This document shows, piece after piece, positions 1 to 64,000 of a stretch of 64,000 nt of DNA. The translations under genes were made by a program, and so were the position numbers. The notes under the pieces are model-generated. The model searched no databases. It saw nothing but the letters and a program-made list of their open reading frames with translations, and had not been told where the DNA came from. This DNA is from Nitrospirota bacterium. GTDB lineage: Bacteria; Nitrospirota; Thermodesulfovibrionia; Thermodesulfovibrionales; UBA1546. The stretch is from positions 62,001 through 126,000 of the forward strand of contig WPIF01000001.1 in assembly GCA_009773185.1 (NCBI GenBank). The letters are read 5' to 3'. Position 1 is the stretch's first letter; the number at the start of each line of letters is the position of its first letter.

Positions 1-1190
1 AGCCAGACAGCTAAAATAGCCGCGCCAGCTCTGCTTCTGAAAATCTGCGAGGCCCATCGCTCCCTGCCCTCTGCGCCCTGCTCTCTGCTCTCTGCCCTCT
101 GCCGACTGCCCCCGGCGCTTTTAAAAATTTCAGAGAGATTTCTTGCCAGAACAGGGCCCGCTATTATGCCGAGCAAAGGCACAAACCTCATTGCAGTGAA
201 TGAAAGAACAATAAAAGGCAATACAAGAAAAAGATGAATAAGGGACGGATATTTTTTAGCTTTTCCGGTCGAGCGTGAATAATAAACCATACCCCAATTT
301 AGAATAAACGATGCAGCAACAGCCAGAGACATAAGGTACGGCCATTTGATAAAACCCCACCTTGGACGCTGAAGCTCGATAATATTTATTCCCTGGCCCG
401 CTCCTGGGTTAAGCATGTTTTTCGCCTGATCCCCGGCTTGCCCCGTTAGAAAAAGCTTTCTAAGCGGGGCAAGCGAGGCCATGATATCATAACCGGCAGT
501 ATATTGGCTTATAAAATAAGGGCTCACAAGCGACATGGCAAAAGAGGCCGCAAAGACAAGAGCAATTGTCTTTATCTTTGCCCTCTGCTCTCTGCTCTCT
601 GCCCTTTTCCCATCCAGATACAGCTGAAGCATCCCGCCGGCGATAAAAGCCAGGAACGGAATAAACATCAGGCTTATGCTTACATGCATATTGGCCCATG
701 CCATGTGGACCAAAGGTAGGAGGTAAATGTATTTTTTGTTCTCATATAAAAAAGCATTAAGCGAAAAAACAGTGAAGGACAGAAAAACCATGAGAAATAT
801 ATCAGGCCTTTCTACAAAGCGGGGGCGGGTCATGATAATAACCACAGTCATCACGCCTATGGCAATTATATAATTTTTGTAAGGCTGGAGGGAATCTCTG
901 GTAAGAAAATAGAATGCAGTTGTTACCGTAACTGCTTTTAAGGCTATAACGCCATAGATATTAAAGAGATGCCAGGCGATATAAAAAACAAAGCCGAAAA
1001 GCCATGAAGCAGAAGCAAAGGGTTTTCCAAGCATGGGGTATGTGAAAGGCTCTGACTCAGGCAATCCCCTCAGATTGAAAATCTCCCTGCCGATGCTCAG
1101 ATGCGTCCACGCATCTGAATTCTCGATTTTTATAAGGGCAAGTACAAAAACAGAGAAAAGAAAAAATATAAAAAGAACCTTATCTCTCAT
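1..1190 (-). CDS. GT-C-type multi-pass membrane protein (3' end outside window)
   Basis: The frame opens at the ATG at 1190 (MRDKVLFIFF...) and stays open to the left edge, so the C-terminus is missing; about 396 residues are visible. The protein is very hydrophobic with many membrane helices. By eye it is a paralogue of the 5194-7320 protein: after the first helix it has an acidic segment 'SDAWTHL' matching 'SDYDLWGHL' there, and the later helices line up. Such proteins are usually lipid-linked-sugar glycosyltransferases of the GT-C fold; the substrate cannot be read. An AGGGAG lies only 2 nt before the ATG. Two tracts of a 7-bp repeat are translated in frame as charged loops at about residues 195-204 and 360-376. 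It is the last gene of a leftward run, 27 nt after the NHL lipoprotein gene. Confidence 0.7.
   Translation of the reverse strand, partial: MRDKVLFIFFLFSVFVLALIKIENSDAWTHLSIGREIFNLRGLPESEPFTYPMLGKPFASASWLFGFVFYIAWHLFNIYGVIALKAVTVTTAFYFLTRDSLQPYKNYIIAIGVMTVVIIMTRPRFVERPDIFLMVFLSFTVFSLNAFLYENKKYIYLLPLVHMAWANMHVSISLMFIPFLAFIAGGMLQLYLDGKRAESREQRAKIKTIALVFAASFAMSLVSPYFISQYTAGYDIMASLAPLRKLFLTGQAGDQAKNMLNPGAGQGINIIELQRPRWGFIKWPYLMSLAVAASFILNWGMVYYSRSTGKAKKYPSLIHLFLVLPFIVLSFTAMRFVPLLGIIAGPVLARNLSEIFKSAGGSRQRAESREQGAEGRERWASQIFRSRAGAAILAVW
61..110. repeat. 7-bp CTCTGCY-type repeat tract inside a coding sequence
   Basis: Degenerate tandem units of the type tctgctc/tctgccc. Because the unit is 7 bp, the coding strand cycles through frames and gives a charged stretch (SRQRAESREQGAEGRER) in the membrane protein at 1-1190. 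Related tracts are at 579-606 and 63863-63896, each also inside a GT-C gene. Confidence 0.8.
579..606. repeat. 7-bp CTCTGCY-type repeat tract inside a coding sequence
   Basis: Same family as 61-110. On the minus strand it reads in frame as RAESREQRA between two membrane helices of the 1-1190 protein. The frame was checked against the ATG at 1190 and is consistent. Confidence 0.8.
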
Positions 1191-2477: not shown

Positions 2478-3557
2478 TCACATCTTATGGCAATTAATGC
2501 ACATGTCCATGGCTGTGTTTGCTTTATACCTGAACAGCCTTATGGAATCCGAGCTGTGGGGATTATGGCAGCTTGAACATGAGAACTCCTTATCAGGCCT
2601 TGCAGGGTCTTTTCCGACCTCTATTTTTTCGCCTTTTTTTACCCGCCTGCCTTTAAGAGGATGGCCTGCAGCGGAAAAACCAATTGCAGCATGGGGATTC
2701 TTGGCAACATCGGCATGGCATGTCAGACAAAGGCCATTAATAGTTTTAGGAAAAAGAAATTTTTGCTTGTTTGCATGCGGGTTGTGGCAGGTTGTGCAGC
2801 CCATCATAACTGCTGCATGAACATTCTTCTTTGTGAACTCTGCCTTATCATGGCAGTTATAACACATATCAGGCTGTGAAGCCGTCAGAAGTTTTTCGCT
2901 GTCTCCCTGATGCGCAAAATGACATGAAGTGCACATGCCGCCGCTTACAGGCGCGTGGACTATCTTGTTCTCGAATTTTGATTTATTATGGCAGGTAAAA
3001 CACAATCCGGGCTGCGCAGACAGAAGCAGCTTCTCTCCCTCGGAGCTGTGCGGAGCATGACATGACGGGCACATGCCGCCTGCAACAGGAGCATGGACTA
3101 TTTTCTTTCCCGAAAAATTCTTCTTGTCATGACACATGAAACACAGTTCAGAGCCGCTTGCTAAAAGAAGCTTTGCATTATCTGATGTGTGCGGGTCGTG
3201 ACAGCCCGAACACATGCCGCCTGCAACAGGTGGGTGAATATTTTTCTTGGTAAACTTAGCCTTGTCATGGCAGCCATAACATAAATCAGGAGCAGCCGCT
3301 GACAGCCCTTTCGGAAACTTCGAGTTCTTCTGATGCGGCTCTGTATGGCAGGACTCGCAGCCCATCTGAAGCGCTGCATGAACAAATTTTTTGGTTGCCA
3401 TCTGTTTATGACACTTCTTGCAGTCAAGCTGCGCATAAACCTGTTCAGGCAAAAAATACAATACAAGGGTAAAAATAAACAGGGGAAAAAGTTTAAATAG
3501 GGGAAATAGTTTCAAGTTGTAACTTCTGCAACTTTTGTAACTTTCGAAACTTTTCAT
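2478..3557 (-). CDS. 13-haem c-type cytochrome, doubled-CXXCH family
   Basis: A 359-residue exported multihaem cytochrome. After a signal peptide ending near VYA|QLD it has 13 CXXCH motifs (CKKCH first, CINCH last), many in pairs with a recurring module: LCxxCH, about 20 residues, H(A/P)PVxGGMCxxCHxPH. This is the doubled-CXXCH architecture of periplasmic or outer-surface electron-transfer cytochromes; its redox partner is unknown. The ATG at 3557 follows GGAGG by 11 nt. The signal peptide (LKLFPLFKLFPLF) is encoded by the AACTTTT-type repeat. It lies between a TPR GT-C gene and the NHL lipoprotein gene, transcribed in the same direction. No CcmF/H or CcsBA maturation gene is in the window. 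Confidence 0.93.
   Translation of the reverse strand: MKSFESYKSCRSYNLKLFPLFKLFPLFIFTLVLYFLPEQVYAQLDCKKCHKQMATKKFVHAALQMGCESCHTEPHQKNSKFPKGLSAAAPDLCYGCHDKAKFTKKNIHPPVAGGMCSGCHDPHTSDNAKLLLASGSELCFMCHDKKNFSGKKIVHAPVAGGMCPSCHAPHSSEGEKLLLSAQPGLCFTCHNKSKFENKIVHAPVSGGMCTSCHFAHQGDSEKLLTASQPDMCYNCHDKAEFTKKNVHAAVMMGCTTCHNPHANKQKFLFPKTINGLCLTCHADVAKNPHAAIGFSAAGHPLKGRRVKKGEKIEVGKDPARPDKEFSCSSCHNPHSSDSIRLFRYKANTAMDMCINCHKM
3463..3552. repeat. AACTTTT-type repeat encoding the cytochrome signal peptide
   Basis: The minus strand reads in units like AAACTTTTTCCCCTATTTAAA and encodes the L-K-L-F-P-L-F repeats of the cytochrome signal peptide. The family continues upstream in the spacer at 3585-3640. Confidence 0.78.
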
Positions 3558-3584
3558 TTAAATTTTAGCCTCCATAATGCTACT

Positions 3585-3640
3585 ATTGCAACTATTTCAC
3601 CTTTTGTAACTCCTGCAACTTTTGTAACTGTTGAAACTTG
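3585..3640. repeat. AACTTTT-type repeat, intergenic
   Basis: Units caactatttc, cttttgtaac, tcctgcaac, ttttgtaac upstream of the cytochrome gene. It abuts the CTACACGCTA-type tract at 3645-3674, so two repeat families are stacked in one 150-bp spacer. Confidence 0.75.
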
Positions 3641-3644
3641 TTCA

Positions 3645-3674
3645 CTACACGCTACCCGCTAATCGCTACACGCT
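3645..3674. repeat. CTACACGCTA-type short repeat
   Basis: ctacacgctacccgctaatcgctacacgct; nearly the same unit order as 1198-1220. It sits between the GT-C gene at 3711 and the cytochrome gene. Confidence 0.75.
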
Positions 3675-3710
3675 TCTTAAATTACCAGAATGAATAAAGT
3701 TAAGTCAAAT

Positions 3711-5193: not shown

Positions 5194-7320
5194 TTACTTT
5201 TCCCTTAAATGTTTTTTGAAAATAACTTCCGCCTCTTTATTTTTCCCCTGCAACAGATAAACCCTCCTGAGCGCCTGATATGCCTCCGCCACAGGCTCAA
5301 GCTTGATCACTTCTTTAAATGATTCTTCTGCATCAGCAAGCCTCCCGGCTGCCATATATGCCTGTCCGAGATTGAAATATATTGCCGGTGACTGGTCGGG
5401 AGATAGTCTAATAGCATCCTTAAAATTACTGCTAGCTCCCCCCGCATCTCCCAAAGAATACATGATGTTCCCAAGCATGAATCTGGCAGTCCATGAATTC
5501 TCCGCATTTTCGATATTCTTTCTCACTTCTTCAGACGCGGACATAAGGATAGTCCTTTCCAGCCCGTAAGGTCTAAAGCGATATGTATCCGGATTAACAA
5601 TCCGCATCGAATATTCATCATTTATATCCTTGAACCCGGCTTCATTCTTAAGATAGAGCAGGCTGTAGTCATCCCAATATGCCAGCCTCCAATCACTGCT
5701 CCTGAAAAGATGATCTCTGAGATTAACGGCGTCAGAAGGGCTGTAATTTAAAAGAACAATATTAATTTTGTATTTATTCAAAAGCTCCTGCCACTCCATT
5801 TCCCCGGATAATATCTTTTCGTACTCGGCAAAAAATTTCCTGTGAAAGAAACGGTTGTCTATATAAACCTTTACGGATGGATATAACTCCCACACAAGAT
5901 AGCCCCCCCAACCGTGGAGATTGAACATATTGCCCTTTATCTCTTTATCTTTTATAAATTTTACGGCTCCTTCGGGGTAAGGCACGTTATCGAATTTCCT
6001 GAGATACCTTCTGTCGGTTACTATAAAAAAAATTGCTGCTGCAATCAGAGACAAAAGAAGAAGTCTTAATAAATAATTAATTTTGTCATTCCGGCCTGGC
6101 ATACTTCGCCGAAGCGGCTGCGAAGGCTGAATCCGAAATCCTTCTTTGGATTTGATGTCTTGCGCTGTCCGATCCTCGACAAGCGAGGATGACAGCTTGT
6201 GACGTCTTGTTGCCAGGCTGCTGATCCCGCTTAATCCAGCTACGATAACAGGCGCAGATGCGAAAACAAAATGGGGAATTCCCCTGTTTGCAATCCATGC
6301 TATCACAGAGAAAAACAACGCGATAAAAAGAAAATGAATCTTGATCCTTCTGAAAGAAAAAATAACAGCAATTACAAATATGCCGAAATATATCCAGAAA
6401 GGCAGATATCTTAATTCTGTCGGAGCCAGCAGCTCCTCTACGCCCGCAAATTGCTCTGACATAACAAGCAACGGCCAGATAACTGTTTTATATGTGAATG
6501 GATTTATGAGAGATGCTGCAGCTATGAGGATAAAGACAATTGTTAGTTTTTTTAAACCGGCCGTGTCTTCCTTTTTACTAATACGGTCATTAGTAAAGTC
6601 ACATAGATCACCCTCCCCTTCATCCCCTCCCCTCAAGGGCGGGGAAACCTTATAACCCTCTCCCCTGGAGGGAGAGGGTGAGGGGGCTTTACTTATGAAC
6701 TCCTTAGTAAGATAAACCCTGACCGCCTCAATGACAAGAAAGATAAACGGCACGACCAGACCCCAAGTACTTTCAGCATGGATATTCACCCATAAAAGCA
6801 TGACAACAGGCAGGATATATAAATATTGTGTGCGCCCCCTGCTGTACTGATGCAGGCTGAAGAGATTAATTAAAAGAAATACATAAGAAAAATGCTGCGG
6901 CCTTAAAACAAAACGATGCGAAGAAGCCAATACCCCAAGGGCCAGTACAAATACGATAACAGGAATATTGTCAGAATACAATCTGGCTGTCTTATACAGA
7001 ATAAAAAAAGAGAGCATCAGAAGAAGAAGCTGGAGAGAAACAAGAGATATCTCGCCGCCTGAGACATAAAGCCGGTAAGTTATTGCCTGGAATAACCACT
7101 CATGATTAAGATACGGAAATTCAGGCCAGCTGCAGTTAAAATAATGGGTTGTCAGTATCGAGCCTGTTTTGAAGAGATATTCTCCTGCCTTCAGATGGCC
7201 CCATAAATCATAGTCTGACAGCCTTCTGAGGGAAAGCACAAAAACAAGGCAAAAAAATCCTGCAATAAGCAGAATGTCCAGTATCCTGGCAGCCTTTGTC
7301 TTGTATGGCATTGCATCCAT
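5194..7320 (-). CDS. GT-C-type membrane protein with TPR tail, two repeat-derived loops
   Basis: A 708-residue multi-pass protein, paralogous to the protein at 1-1190, with a soluble region after the last helix and TPRs near the C-terminus (ARFMLGNIMYSLGDAGGA, AIYFNLGQAYMAAGRLADA). The soluble part (about 440-560) resembles the C-terminal domain of GT-C mannosyltransferases. Two insertions are plainly repeat-derived: residues about 211-237 (PSPSPSRGEG...PPLRGGDEGEG) and about 370-411 (a translated version of a dispersed intergenic repeat). Both keep the frame and lie at the same loops as the insertions in the 1-1190 protein. A TATAAT lies 6 nt before the ATG, suggesting a leaderless mRNA. Its divergent neighbour is the acyltransferase. 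Confidence 0.8.
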   Translation of the reverse strand: MDAMPYKTKAARILDILLIAGFFCLVFVLSLRRLSDYDLWGHLKAGEYLFKTGSILTTHYFNCSWPEFPYLNHEWLFQAITYRLYVSGGEISLVSLQLLLLMLSFFILYKTARLYSDNIPVIVFVLALGVLASSHRFVLRPQHFSYVFLLINLFSLHQYSRGRTQYLYILPVVMLLWVNIHAESTWGLVVPFIFLVIEAVRVYLTKEFISKAPSPSPSRGEGYKVSPPLRGGDEGEGDLCDFTNDRISKKEDTAGLKKLTIVFILIAAASLINPFTYKTVIWPLLVMSEQFAGVEELLAPTELRYLPFWIYFGIFVIAVIFSFRRIKIHFLFIALFFSVIAWIANRGIPHFVFASAPVIVAGLSGISSLATRRHKLSSSLVEDRTAQDIKSKEGFRIQPSQPLRRSMPGRNDKINYLLRLLLLSLIAAAIFFIVTDRRYLRKFDNVPYPEGAVKFIKDKEIKGNMFNLHGWGGYLVWELYPSVKVYIDNRFFHRKFFAEYEKILSGEMEWQELLNKYKINIVLLNYSPSDAVNLRDHLFRSSDWRLAYWDDYSLLYLKNEAGFKDINDEYSMRIVNPDTYRFRPYGLERTILMSASEEVRKNIENAENSWTARFMLGNIMYSLGDAGGASSNFKDAIRLSPDQSPAIYFNLGQAYMAAGRLADAEESFKEVIKLEPVAEAYQALRRVYLLQGKNKEAEVIFKKHLREK
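6085..6207. repeat. GTCATTCC...GGATGAC dispersed repeat inside a coding sequence
   Basis: Contains the hairpins cttcgccgaag (6104-6114) and atcctcgacaagcgaggat (6172-6190) and begins with gtcattcc, a layout common for dispersed intergenic palindromic repeats. Here it is read in frame within the gene at 5194-7320. Confidence 0.75.
6609..6688. repeat. CCCTCTCCC...GGGAGAGGG palindromic repeat inside a coding sequence
   Basis: A composite of two GC-rich inverted repeats, one around cccctcaagggcgggg and one around ccctctcccctggagggagaggg. It is read in frame as PSPSRGEG/PPLRGGDEGEG in the gene at 5194-7320. Its base composition differs sharply from the flanking AT-rich coding DNA. Confidence 0.8.
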
Positions 7321-7380: not shown

Positions 7381-8454
7381 ATGACCCTTATTGATAATAA
7401 GCAAAGGATATTCGAAGCTGACATCATCAGGTGTCTTTTTATCTTATATATTATCACCGTGCGTCATCCTATCGATTATATTGCACGTTTTATTGATAAA
7501 GCTTCTCTTGAAGACATACGCATTTATGTTCTTTTAAATAATACATTTGTACTAATTGCTCTTGGGATGTTCATATTCATTTCCGGTCTTCTGATTGCGC
7601 GAAGATATCCTGTGTTAAGAGACAGCAAAGAAAGAGCTTCATTTATAAAAGCAAGAATCTTCAGGATATACCCTTTATACTTACTTGCTCTTATTATCTT
7701 TACCTTTTTTATTGTTCCTGGTCCTTTCGAGCTACTATCATTTGCAGCCCACATTTTTTCACTAAATCTCCTGCTTTCCCCGTTGACCGGAACCCCTATT
7801 TTCACTCTATGGTTTGTAGGATTAATATTTTCCTATTACCTGCTATTTCCGGTAGTTATAAACAGCAGCGACAGGCTGTTTCGGACTGTAATACTTCTGG
7901 GTTTCATATTAAGCTTATTATCACTACTACATAAACACCTTGGCATTGTAGATGAGCGCGTGATTATTTATCTTCCTGTTTTCTTCATTGGCATATACTG
8001 CGGACGCAATGGATTAATGCATGTATTGCGCAGCAAAACAGTGGTGATGTCTTCTACTTTTATATTGATCCCTTCATTTTATTATAATCTCATACGATTA
8101 CAAGACAAAACAGTTTTGCCGAATGACAGCCTGACTATTTTCATTGTGTGTAACCTTGTCATGATATCATCTATAAGCCCTGTATGGAATCTGGCGCGAC
8201 TATTAGCATCAGCATTGGGAACAAACAGAGACTTTATCTCAAAAATAGCATATTACTCTTATTGCATGTACCTTTTTCACAGGATCATATTTTTCGTATT
8301 ACTTAAACTTTATTATCCTCATTCCGCAATCTCGACTCTTTTATATCTCATTATTGCAGGACTTCCTCTGACTTTAATTCTCTCTTCACTGATTCAGTCT
8401 GGATATGACAAATTCCTGACTAATACAATTTATAGCGAAGCATCTGCAAGATAA
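7381..8454 (+). CDS. Acyltransferase 3 (OafA-like) membrane protein
   Basis: A 357-residue protein with about ten predicted helices, opening with the pattern of acyltransferase-3 enzymes: a short N-terminus, FEADIIRCLFILYIITV, then HP in the first loop. The family O-acetylates or otherwise acylates sugars of surface polysaccharides and glycolipids in the inner membrane. It lacks a fused SGNH domain. There is no clear Shine-Dalgarno; TATAAA lies 10 nt upstream of the ATG. It is the first of three plus-strand genes (7381-10912), the only rightward genes supported in the window. Confidence 0.75.
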   Translation: MTLIDNKQRIFEADIIRCLFILYIITVRHPIDYIARFIDKASLEDIRIYVLLNNTFVLIALGMFIFISGLLIARRYPVLRDSKERASFIKARIFRIYPLYLLALIIFTFFIVPGPFELLSFAAHIFSLNLLLSPLTGTPIFTLWFVGLIFSYYLLFPVVINSSDRLFRTVILLGFILSLLSLLHKHLGIVDERVIIYLPVFFIGIYCGRNGLMHVLRSKTVVMSSTFILIPSFYYNLIRLQDKTVLPNDSLTIFIVCNLVMISSISPVWNLARLLASALGTNRDFISKIAYYSYCMYLFHRIIFFVLLKLYYPHSAISTLLYLIIAGLPLTLILSSLIQSGYDKFLTNTIYSEASAR

Positions 8455-14742: not shown

Positions 14743-15903
14743 TTATTTCTGCCGCAATTGTAAAGCCTTCCATTTTTCACCAAGATACTGGAAGACCTGA
14801 ACCCTTGCATTAAACTGGTCAACAACATAAATCCTGTCATCAGCGTCTGCAGCAATCCCGGCAGGCATGGAGAATTGGCCCGGCTCCGTTCCTCCTTCAC
14901 CCACTTCAAGAAAAAAATTACCTTCCTTGTCAAATATAAAAATTTTCTGCAACGCTGCATCAACAACATACATATTACCCTCTGAATCAATAGTTATTCC
15001 TTTAGGGCGCACAAATGACTTTGGTTTGCTGCCCGACGAAATAGTCCTAAGAAATTTCCCCTCGCTGTTATAAACCTGCACCCTGAAATTTCCTGTATCC
15101 ACAACATATATATTCCCATGGGAATCGACTGCAATGTTCGTCGGGAAGCTTAACTTGCTCTTATCTGCTACCCGTCCCTCTATCAGAAAAAGGAATCTTC
15201 CGTCGAGTGTATAGGCCCTCACACTATTTGTCTTGGCATCAGCAACATATAACCTGCCCCTATCTGAATCCACTGCCATCCCCGACGGGCTCTTCAGTTC
15301 GCCTGTCCGACCGATCTCCCGTATAAATTCTCCGTTTCTGTTATACACAAATAACTTTCGGGCTGTTACATCGCTCACATATACTCTTCCATCAGAAGAC
15401 ACTGCAATACCTATCGGCATTCTCAACTGGCCTTCCCCAAGTTTGTCTCCCATAAATAAAAGGCTGCCGCCCTTCCTGTCAAAGACAAATACCCTGCCTA
15501 CATCCGTCACATAAATCCTGCCCTCTTTGTCAACCGTAACGCCATATGGCCTTATCAGCCTTCCTTCTATATCTTCTTCACCCCCAATAAAGTTTTTCAG
15601 CCATCCGCTTTTAGCCTCTGGCTGCAGATCGTCTTTCGATTCAATTATTTCACCAAACTTTATCCTCGGCTCAGCAGGCGGAAGCGGCCAGACGGTATTT
15701 ACAGGTTTTTCAGGCATCCGCTCAACCTCTTCAAAGGCACAGCCCGTTATGAAAAACAGGTTAAAAAGGATAAGAAGCTGCAAAAGTTTCAAAAAATTAA
15801 GCAGGGTAAATAGTTGCAATAGTTTCAGAAGCTGCAATAGTTTCAACTTAAAACTTTTTACCCTTTTATAACTTTTTACACTTTTAAAATGCACTTTTTT
15901 CAA
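14743..15903 (-). CDS. NHL-repeat beta-propeller lipoprotein (paralogue of 1218-2342)
   Basis: Six NHL blades in the same order as in the 1218-2342 protein (RPYGVTVD, MPIGIAVS, SPSGMAVD, FPTNIAVD, RPKGITID, MPAGIAAD), ending in the shared VYVVDQ-type motif and RVQVFQYLGEKWK. The lipobox is FFITGC. The signal region is unusually long and almost wholly made of K-L-L-Q-L units encoded by the AACTTTT-type repeat. No ATG exists between the in-frame stop at 15922 and the signal; the start is TTG at 15903 or GTG at 15894. It follows a TPR GT-C gene directly and precedes a GT39 gene. Confidence 0.85.
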   Translation of the reverse strand: MKKVHFKSVKSYKRVKSFKLKLLQLLKLLQLFTLLNFLKLLQLLILFNLFFITGCAFEEVERMPEKPVNTVWPLPPAEPRIKFGEIIESKDDLQPEAKSGWLKNFIGGEEDIEGRLIRPYGVTVDKEGRIYVTDVGRVFVFDRKGGSLLFMGDKLGEGQLRMPIGIAVSSDGRVYVSDVTARKLFVYNRNGEFIREIGRTGELKSPSGMAVDSDRGRLYVADAKTNSVRAYTLDGRFLFLIEGRVADKSKLSFPTNIAVDSHGNIYVVDTGNFRVQVYNSEGKFLRTISSGSKPKSFVRPKGITIDSEGNMYVVDAALQKIFIFDKEGNFFLEVGEGGTEPGQFSMPAGIAADADDRIYVVDQFNARVQVFQYLGEKWKALQLRQK

Positions 15904-63182: not shown

Positions 63183-64000
63183 CAGCCACTTCTTTCTGTG
63201 CCGGATATAATTTCTGAAACCTTAAATGCGCCCAAGGCAAAAATTACAAAGTATCCCAATGAAGGAAGATACATCCTGTGCTCAAAGATAACATCAGGCA
63301 GAATCGCTATTGAAGATGTAGGCGCAAGAATAAGGAAAAACCACAGGATGAAAAAAGATATAACCTTCTGCCTCTTAAACAAAAACACTGCGAGTCCTAA
63401 AAATGTAATAATGCCGATACCTCCAAATAACGTTGCAAGAGGGGTTAAAAGGCCTCTGGAAATCCCATAGTTATAATCTAAATTCTGATTTATGGGAAGT
63501 ATCAGGAGCTTGATATATGTCCATATCACCCTGAACTGCGTAAGAAAATATTCATGTCTTGATATTGAGCTTGTTTCACCCTCTATGCTTGAGGTAGGAG
63601 GAAGACTAACAGCATCTGTTGCTACAAATGATTTGATCAGCCCCCCCATAAAATACATCAAAGAAATAAGTGTCATAAAAAACAAAAGATGTACAGCCCA
63701 TCTTCGGGAAAGGGTTTTAATATCGCCGTCAGACAGAAAAAAGAAGTCATATAGAAGGATAACAACAGGCAGTGTTACAGCTATCTCTTTTGAACCCATG
63801 GCAAACACAGCTGAAATAAGCGAAACAGCGTATAGCGTGTAGCGTGCAGCGTATGACTTTAACTGCTCTCTGCTATCTGCTCTTTGCTCTCTGCTTAAGC
63901 GGCTTGCCTTTATAAACATGACCAGCGACAGCAGATAAAAAAACGACGAAAGTATTTCAGCCCTCTGGACTATATATGTGACTGCCTGTGTCTGAATCGG
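63182..64000 (-). CDS. TMTC-like GT-C membrane protein (5' end outside window)
   Basis: The frame is open to the right edge: reading begins PIQTQAVTYIVQRAEILSS, which matches HPIQTEAVSYISQRYESLAS of the 15922 protein, so the N-terminus lies beyond 64000 and the Met at 63919 is internal. It continues GSKEIAVTLPVV and ends after the last helix (EIISGTERSG) without the TPR of its paralogues. A repeat-derived loop (SREQRADSREQ...AARYTLYA) occupies the same loop as in the 15922 protein. Confidence 0.8.
   Translation of the reverse strand, partial: PIQTQAVTYIVQRAEILSSFFYLLSLVMFIKASRLSREQRADSREQLKSYAARYTLYAVSLISAVFAMGSKEIAVTLPVVILLYDFFFLSDGDIKTLSRRWAVHLLFFMTLISLMYFMGGLIKSFVATDAVSLPPTSSIEGETSSISRHEYFLTQFRVIWTYIKLLILPINQNLDYNYGISRGLLTPLATLFGGIGIITFLGLAVFLFKRQKVISFFILWFFLILAPTSSIAILPDVIFEHRMYLPSLGYFVIFALGAFKVSEIISGTERSG
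63827..63854. repeat. CTACACGCTA-type repeat inside a coding sequence
   Basis: agcgtatagcgtgtagcgtgcagcgtat; reads in frame as YAARYTLYA in the GT-C gene at 63182. It encodes the same peptide motif (A-x-RYTLYA) as 16915-16943. Confidence 0.8.
63863..63896. repeat. 7-bp CTCTGCY-type repeat inside a coding sequence
   Basis: Units tgctctc, tgctatc, tgctctt. Reads in frame as SREQRADSREQ. It abuts the tract at 63827, so two families are stacked within one loop. Confidence 0.8.

Follow-up and report, generated by a model that had tools for sequence, protein, structure and literature searches.

A terminal-inverted-repeat element and a second dispersed repeat lie in frame in two loops of a GT-C-fold membrane protein from Nitrospirota

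Results and discussion

Within a window of 64,000 nucleotides taken from a 2.79-Mb draft Nitrospirota genome (G000), we found that a membrane protein, here called B, carries two in-frame repeats of different families in two of its inter-helix loops. Our account of them, which we hold to be very probably correct, is that a non-autonomous transposable element (MITE) entered loop 1 as DNA with the reading frame kept, that the copies that survive are those in flexible loops, and that the inserts are likely passive linkers. The loop-1 element added 132 nt and is read in one of its two usually open frames, so that the host ORF stayed intact. Coordinates of B, its paralogue A and the repeats in both are collected in Table 1.

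Table 1. Features of the two GT-C paralogues and their loop repeats (window coordinates).
Feature	Position	Strand	Basis
Host gene B, 708-aa GT-C-fold membrane protein with C-terminal TPRs (predicted fold)	5194..7320	-	ORF, Pfam, AlphaFold, Foldseek
Paralogue A, first 396 aa; the full 767-aa ORF runs beyond the window	1..1190	-	alignment to B over 600+ columns
Complete MITE-like element with F1 core, B loop 1, TA at both ends	6576..6709	-	alignment with G001 copies; open frame TKEFISKAPSPSPSRGEGYKVSPPLRGGDEGEGDLCDFTNDRIS
Terminal inverted repeat, coding-strand 5' end, TACTAAGGAGTTCATAAGTAAAG	6687..6709	-	0 mismatches to TIR pattern
Terminal inverted repeat, opposite end, TACTAATACGGTCATTAGTAAAG	6576..6598	+	1 mismatch to TIR pattern
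F1 core, two G/C-rich hairpins CCCTCTCCCTCCAGGGGAGAGGG and CCCCGCCCTTGAGGGGAGGGG	6599..6686	-	alignment with G001 copies; fold z -2.95
F2-type repeat, B loop 2, 111 bp = 37 codons, residues about 376-412	6084..6194	-	missing in orthologues; dispersed; similar to F2 cores
Heptamer tract, A loop 1, GKRAESREQRAKIK	576..610	-	alignment, pattern search
Heptamer tract, A loop 2, SRQRAESREQGAEGRE	62..111	-	alignment, pattern search

The host protein and its two loops

While a Pfam search of B returned matches to TPR only, its AlphaFold model (pLDDT 81.7) allowed a Foldseek comparison in which the membrane part matched Stt3/AglB oligosaccharyltransferases (prob 1.00, TM about 0.46), and the GT-C label given in the first-pass annotation was thus right. 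With a multi-TM domain, an acidic motif in the first periplasmic loop, a soluble C-terminal domain, and D38 and H42 invariant in the first loop, B is, as modelled, a GT-C-fold protein, for which glycosyl transfer from a polyprenyl-linked donor is only predicted; it shares its fold with Stt3/AglB, but identity is about 10% and B has TPRs at its C-terminus. The closest named relatives of B come from Nitrospirae MAGs (orthologues L044, 58% identity, and L045, 46%). Paralogue A has a small insert of its own in the C-terminal domain (GRMLDSQPS), the DNA of which (ACTCGGTTGCGAGTC) occurs again, inverted, just 3' of the gene (L043, about 7618-7655 and 6790-6812).

We placed the loops by an alignment of 19 proteins and by AlphaFold models of both paralogues. 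In B, the inserts lie between helices 182-211 and 249-272 and between helices 345-390 and 410-435, while the tracts of A are found at helices 171-193 and 197-221 and at helices 334-370 and 378-395. Residues 205-248 of B and about 194-205 of A therefore fall between the same two helices (loop 1), and residues 376-412 of B and about 360-377 of A both come before the final helix that leads into the soluble C-terminal domain (loop 2). The earlier proposal that the repeat-bearing loops of B correspond to the tract-bearing loops of A is borne out by the alignment and the two models, and structure prediction of both paralogues, which had been suggested as a check, set inserts and tracts in equivalent inter-helix loops. 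Both B inserts are mostly below about 60 in pLDDT, as expected for disorder. Judged by TM counts, by where the C-terminal domain lies and by the match to the GT-C fold, both loops would be on the side opposite to that domain, that is, in the cytoplasm. With about ten inter-helix loops, two proteins would share the same two by chance about once in 45 cases, or about once in 10 if only cytoplasmic loops are counted; the loop match by itself is modest evidence, and the case is carried by the wider survey of the family.

The tracts of A differ in kind from an inserted element. Genome-wide, the pattern CTCTGCN gave 110 overlapping matches versus 2 in the control, and among the loci read all but one lay within ORFs of at least 190 aa. 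As these heptamers are tandem repeats, they probably grew by slippage, and "element insertion" is the wrong description for them. Another CTCTGCN tract is located at window positions 63863-63895.

The repeats in loops 1 and 2 of B

The loop-1 element begins and ends as TACTAAGG...TATTAGTA, has terminal inverted repeats (TIRs) of 23 bp ending in TA, and contributes a stop-free addition whose length is 0 mod 3, corresponding to 44 residues. Its borders were read from an alignment of the segment with copies from G001, a genome of the same family, in which the ends are sharp and common (TACTAAGGAGTTCATAAGTAAAG...CTTTACTAATGAACTCCTTAGTA). The first-pass annotation had put a repeat at residues 211-237; a repeat is indeed present, with the aligned copies widening its borders to 205-248. 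Folding of the coding strand is stronger than in dinucleotide shuffles, with a z of -2.95 for this element and of -7.2 for an intact copy. The insert is rich in Pro, Ser, Gly and Glu and mostly has pLDDT <50. A reading of this repeat as single-copy (pattern CTCCCTCCAGGGGAGAGGG has 2 matches in the genome) was overturned by copies in relatives, where hundreds of related copies occur in other genomes.

Searched with the TIR pattern, six of six family genomes contained the same terminal repeats, and matches numbered 4 in G000, 14 in the same-genus G006 and 97 in G001, against 0-1 for reversed-pattern controls, and 53 in G112; these genome counts come from pattern searches and selected stretches, and the compared genomes are apparently all drafts, with contigs of some breaking at element repeats. 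The terminal repeats are common to at least three different cores, namely F1 (as in B), F2 (TGTCATTCC...GGAATGACA) and F3 (CTCCCTTTGGCAAAGGGAGG). Paired elements are mostly about 110-250 bp, and their coding frame amounts to only a 44-46 aa linker peptide. Being TIR-bounded, short (about 70-400 bp), devoid of a transposase gene and dispersed in multiple copies, the loop-1 element is, judged by its sequence, a MITE. Across the order, the F1 peptide is present in 22 of 176 genomes, with a patchy distribution.

The repeat in loop 2 starts with TGTCATTCC and ends with GGATGACA on the + strand (TGTCATCC...GGAATGACA on the coding strand), and is a copy of a dispersed family of the form TGTCAT...ATGACA, for which a genome-wide pattern search gave 9 matches versus 0 for the reversed control; elsewhere in the genome, a copy on contig C27 is 85% alike over 62 nt. 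It is of F2 type in sequence and has no 23-bp terminal repeats, and it is cleanly absent from both orthologues found (L044 and L045). The earlier claim of two palindromic repeats of families other than the 7-bp tracts thus stands as to their presence, their families (an F1-core MITE-like element and an F2-type repeat) and the location of the second (predicted at about residues 370-411), but the second is palindromic only weakly as a whole (fold z -0.5 against dinucleotide shuffles). Other F2 repeats lie in or at the end of ORFs of the same genome (C34:23189, L313/L318; C27:26295, L316; C44:116767, L312), and one of them is apparently read in frame within an ORF of about 646 aa that resembles a beta-propeller.

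Recurrent use of the same loops

Read across the GT-C family, the same two loops gather several unrelated repeat families. In loop 1, B has the F1 element, L044 an F2 core together with what is probably a remnant of the terminal repeat, A and L017 heptamers, and L045 a short tandem tract of 9-bp units. In loop 2, F2 copies are found in B and in the distant homologue L147, a heptamer tract in A, heptamers alongside a further palindrome in L027 and a hairpin resembling F1 in L015; this loop is empty in L017, L044 and L045. L147 has an additional F1 in a third loop, mapped to the cytoplasmic face. Outside this family, radical-SAM orthologues from G001 and G144, which belong to different families of the order, each have an F1 copy directly behind the cysteine motif, in one and the same loop, and since the two copies are opposite in orientation and at slightly different sites, they represent independent events and recurrent insertion.

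These patterns might alternatively arise from a single ancestral insertion per loop, followed by swapping of cores through recombination between the shared terminal repeats, without independent insertions. What speaks for such swapping is that at least three cores occur within the same ends across genomes, and that loop 1 of L044 pairs its F2 core with the remnant just mentioned (3 mismatches in 18, a shuffle chance of about 1.6%). Yet the left junctions of B and L044 differ by about 1 residue and the right ones by about 6, L045 has only its 9-bp tract in loop 1, loop 2 is empty in both orthologues, and the radical-SAM pair differs in orientation and site, and we regard core swapping as unlikely. 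Independent insertion of different elements, as first proposed for the two paralogues, is supported by the empty loop 2 of the orthologues and by the varied families in relatives; it probably does not extend to the heptamers of A, which are more likely a product of slippage.

Target sites and mobilization

For 60 mixed elements and 69 oriented F1 elements, flanks are symmetric around TA, the terminal TA being preceded by AnT at one end and followed by AnT at the other, and from these AnT-TA/TA-AnT flanks we infer a 2-bp TA target duplication; a longer target-site duplication was not found in element flanks. Under the MITE account, a DDE-type transposase acting in trans would insert the element at a TA in an AT-rich site (AnT-TA-AnT) and duplicate the TA. 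Among the matches listed from the TIR-pattern search of 6 genomes, there was neither an autonomous element with matching ends nor a pair of TIRs spaced by about 1 kb. As a partner, an IS630/DDE_3 transposase was considered and rejected, the only such gene in three genomes searched (in G001) having unrelated ends. The CobB genes of two genomes were likewise rejected as mutual empty sites, being distant paralogues.

The inserts could instead be hairpins of REP/IS200 type, transposed in single-stranded form by a Y1 (RAYT-like) enzyme rather than as TA-targeting DDE MITEs, and here each terminal repeat is an imperfect palindrome, cores form strong hairpins, and intragenic REPs are known (PMC3733652). 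Oriented elements nonetheless show a symmetric flank bias (T before, A after), which a palindromic TA target would be expected to give and one-sided cleavage without duplication would not, and the ends are long inverted repeats; on balance, we consider this route decidedly improbable.

Reading frame and host genes of the element family

A first census, covering G000, G001 and other genomes of the family, yielded 61 paired elements (16 F1 and 45 others), among which 6 F1 copies were gene-internal with in-frame read-through and other cores contributed 0. The same picture emerged from a second, independent set of eight further genomes, whose elements were ranked by DNA similarity with frame disregarded. 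Pooling these, lengths mod 3 were 42/2/10 for F1 (n=54) and 15/14/17 for other cores (n=46; Fisher p 7e-6), with many of the 138-bp copies being young and identical by descent so that the length statistics are not fully independent. Taking a gene as a stop-to-stop ORF, 23/54 F1 copies were inside ORFs and 19/23 of these read through in frame (p 2e-6 against an expectation of 1/3 if two frames in six are open), as compared to 2/46 and 0/2 for other cores. In F1 two of six frames are usually open, and frame (+,1) is the one used in 17/20 in-frame cases. F1 is thus the sole core tolerated inside genes in the pooled census, and for the in-frame bias it would suffice that harmless copies survive, without targeting.

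The in-frame F1 cases of the pooled census number 20 in unrelated protein-coding genes across 8 genomes; a further 20 loci (L292-L311), partly selected by peptide, were excluded from the statistics. Hosts named by family searches are many unrelated, conserved enzymes across the order (Ddl, CheA, GH13 amylase, WaaA, HypF, an O-antigen ligase with TPRs, an ABC-F protein, TrmJ, HrpB and radical-SAM proteins), and the partly peptide-selected loci add CobB, RlmN, Fmt and a TorD-like protein. The likeness to in-frame palindromic elements of Rickettsia genes, suggested in the first-pass annotation, is upheld by these in-frame copies. One 1206-aa protein (L267, G144 contig C117) has two in-frame F1 elements at separate places, and the CheA of G001 (L145, C54) has, beyond F1, two more repeat-derived-looking segments (NPSYSPLEKGDSGG... 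and IPSPQGRGNK).

Applied to B, insertion of a MITE would be followed by selection that purges copies shifting the frame or hitting structured parts, such that remaining copies would sit in flexible surface loops, here the putatively cytoplasmic loops of a polytopic membrane protein, and the element peptide would be translated. The second, independent repeat in loop 2, of F2 type, would be tolerated on the same grounds, and most likely neither insert has a function of its own in B. That the inserts are instead functional, regulated linkers under selection (e.g., docking or phase-variable loops) is very improbable, for orthologues manage without inserts, F1 sits at unrelated places in many unrelated enzymes, and the segments are predicted disordered and variable in sequence, against which stand the repeated use of the same two loops by the GT-C family and the 7-nt heptamer unit, which could switch reading frames. 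Hardly credible is an assembly or sequencing artefact that misjoined a repeat into the gene, because, although elements lie near contig ends in G001 and G112, both inserts keep the reading frame, the site lies in the interior of a 179-kb contig, and other assemblies have comparable inserts in these two loops.

Relation to known systems

RPEs (Ogata et al. 2000/2002) are palindromic repeats of 100-150 bp that lie in frame in many unrelated conserved genes and encode a characteristic peptide, and at almost one and the same locus the repeats of orthologues may belong to different groups (PMC10969869, PMC3767692). The F1 family resembles them in palindromic size, in-frame entry into unrelated genes, a characteristic peptide and varied repeats at one locus, but it resides in Nitrospirota rather than Rickettsiales, has 23-bp TIRs ending in TA, and combines shared ends with different cores. 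We therefore liken the F1 family to RPEs by behaviour, in a different host, and do not file it as an RPE.

Bacterial MITEs with coding fusions include ERIC/RU elements (PMC2759123), QMITE1/2 (PMC5896051) and Correia elements (PMC10969869), most bacterial MITEs have TA at their termini, and QMITE insertions in functional genes are at 3' ends (PMC5896051). Such elements are, like ours, short, TIR-bounded, transposase-free and dispersed, sometimes adding codons; unlike those of QMITE, in-frame F1 copies lie mid-enzyme, and only one core type commonly gives such copies. Proteins are also decorated by intragenic GTAG/CGTC REPs, with different REPs at about the same recB site in two Xanthomonas species (PMC3733652); both kinds are palindromic and protein-decorating, but REPs are 20-40 bp without TIRs, versus 130-140 bp with TIRs for the F1 element. 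By description, the loop-2 repeat resembles CGTC-tagged REPs ((T/C)GTCATTCC...GGAATGACA). Our literature search for the element in Nitrospirae found no paper describing it, and by analogy it is a new TIR-bounded family in Nitrospirota with RPE-like behaviour. More tentatively, it is possible that the order carries a modular element in which one TIR pair bounds swappable palindromic cores, with F1 shaped for translation (stop-free in two frames, 3n) and spreading as a disordered linker into enzyme surface loops.

To our knowledge, protein-coding palindromes have so far been known almost only as an oddity of Rickettsia, whose reductive evolution makes it hard to see why insertions are tolerated. 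In the Nitrospirota family, the ends are well defined, copies are numerous and found in both orientations, frame-breaking siblings serve as internal controls and the same loops are hit repeatedly, so that it becomes testable whether such inserts are tolerated junk or a source of new protein segments. For annotation, peptides of the form PSPSP..GEG..PPLRGGDEGEG in this order should be read as transposon footprints, not domains.

Two further kinds of repeat occur in the window. Arrays of 9-bp units (TTTTGCAAC / GTTTCAATA) are found at 2191-2460, 3466-3640 and 15764-15889, where they flank and enter the start of a multihaem cytochrome gene (2478-3557) and may supply N-terminal codons, and an intergenic repeat (CCCGCTAATCGCTACACGC) is present in two copies, 87% alike, at 1187-1225 and 3642-3680.
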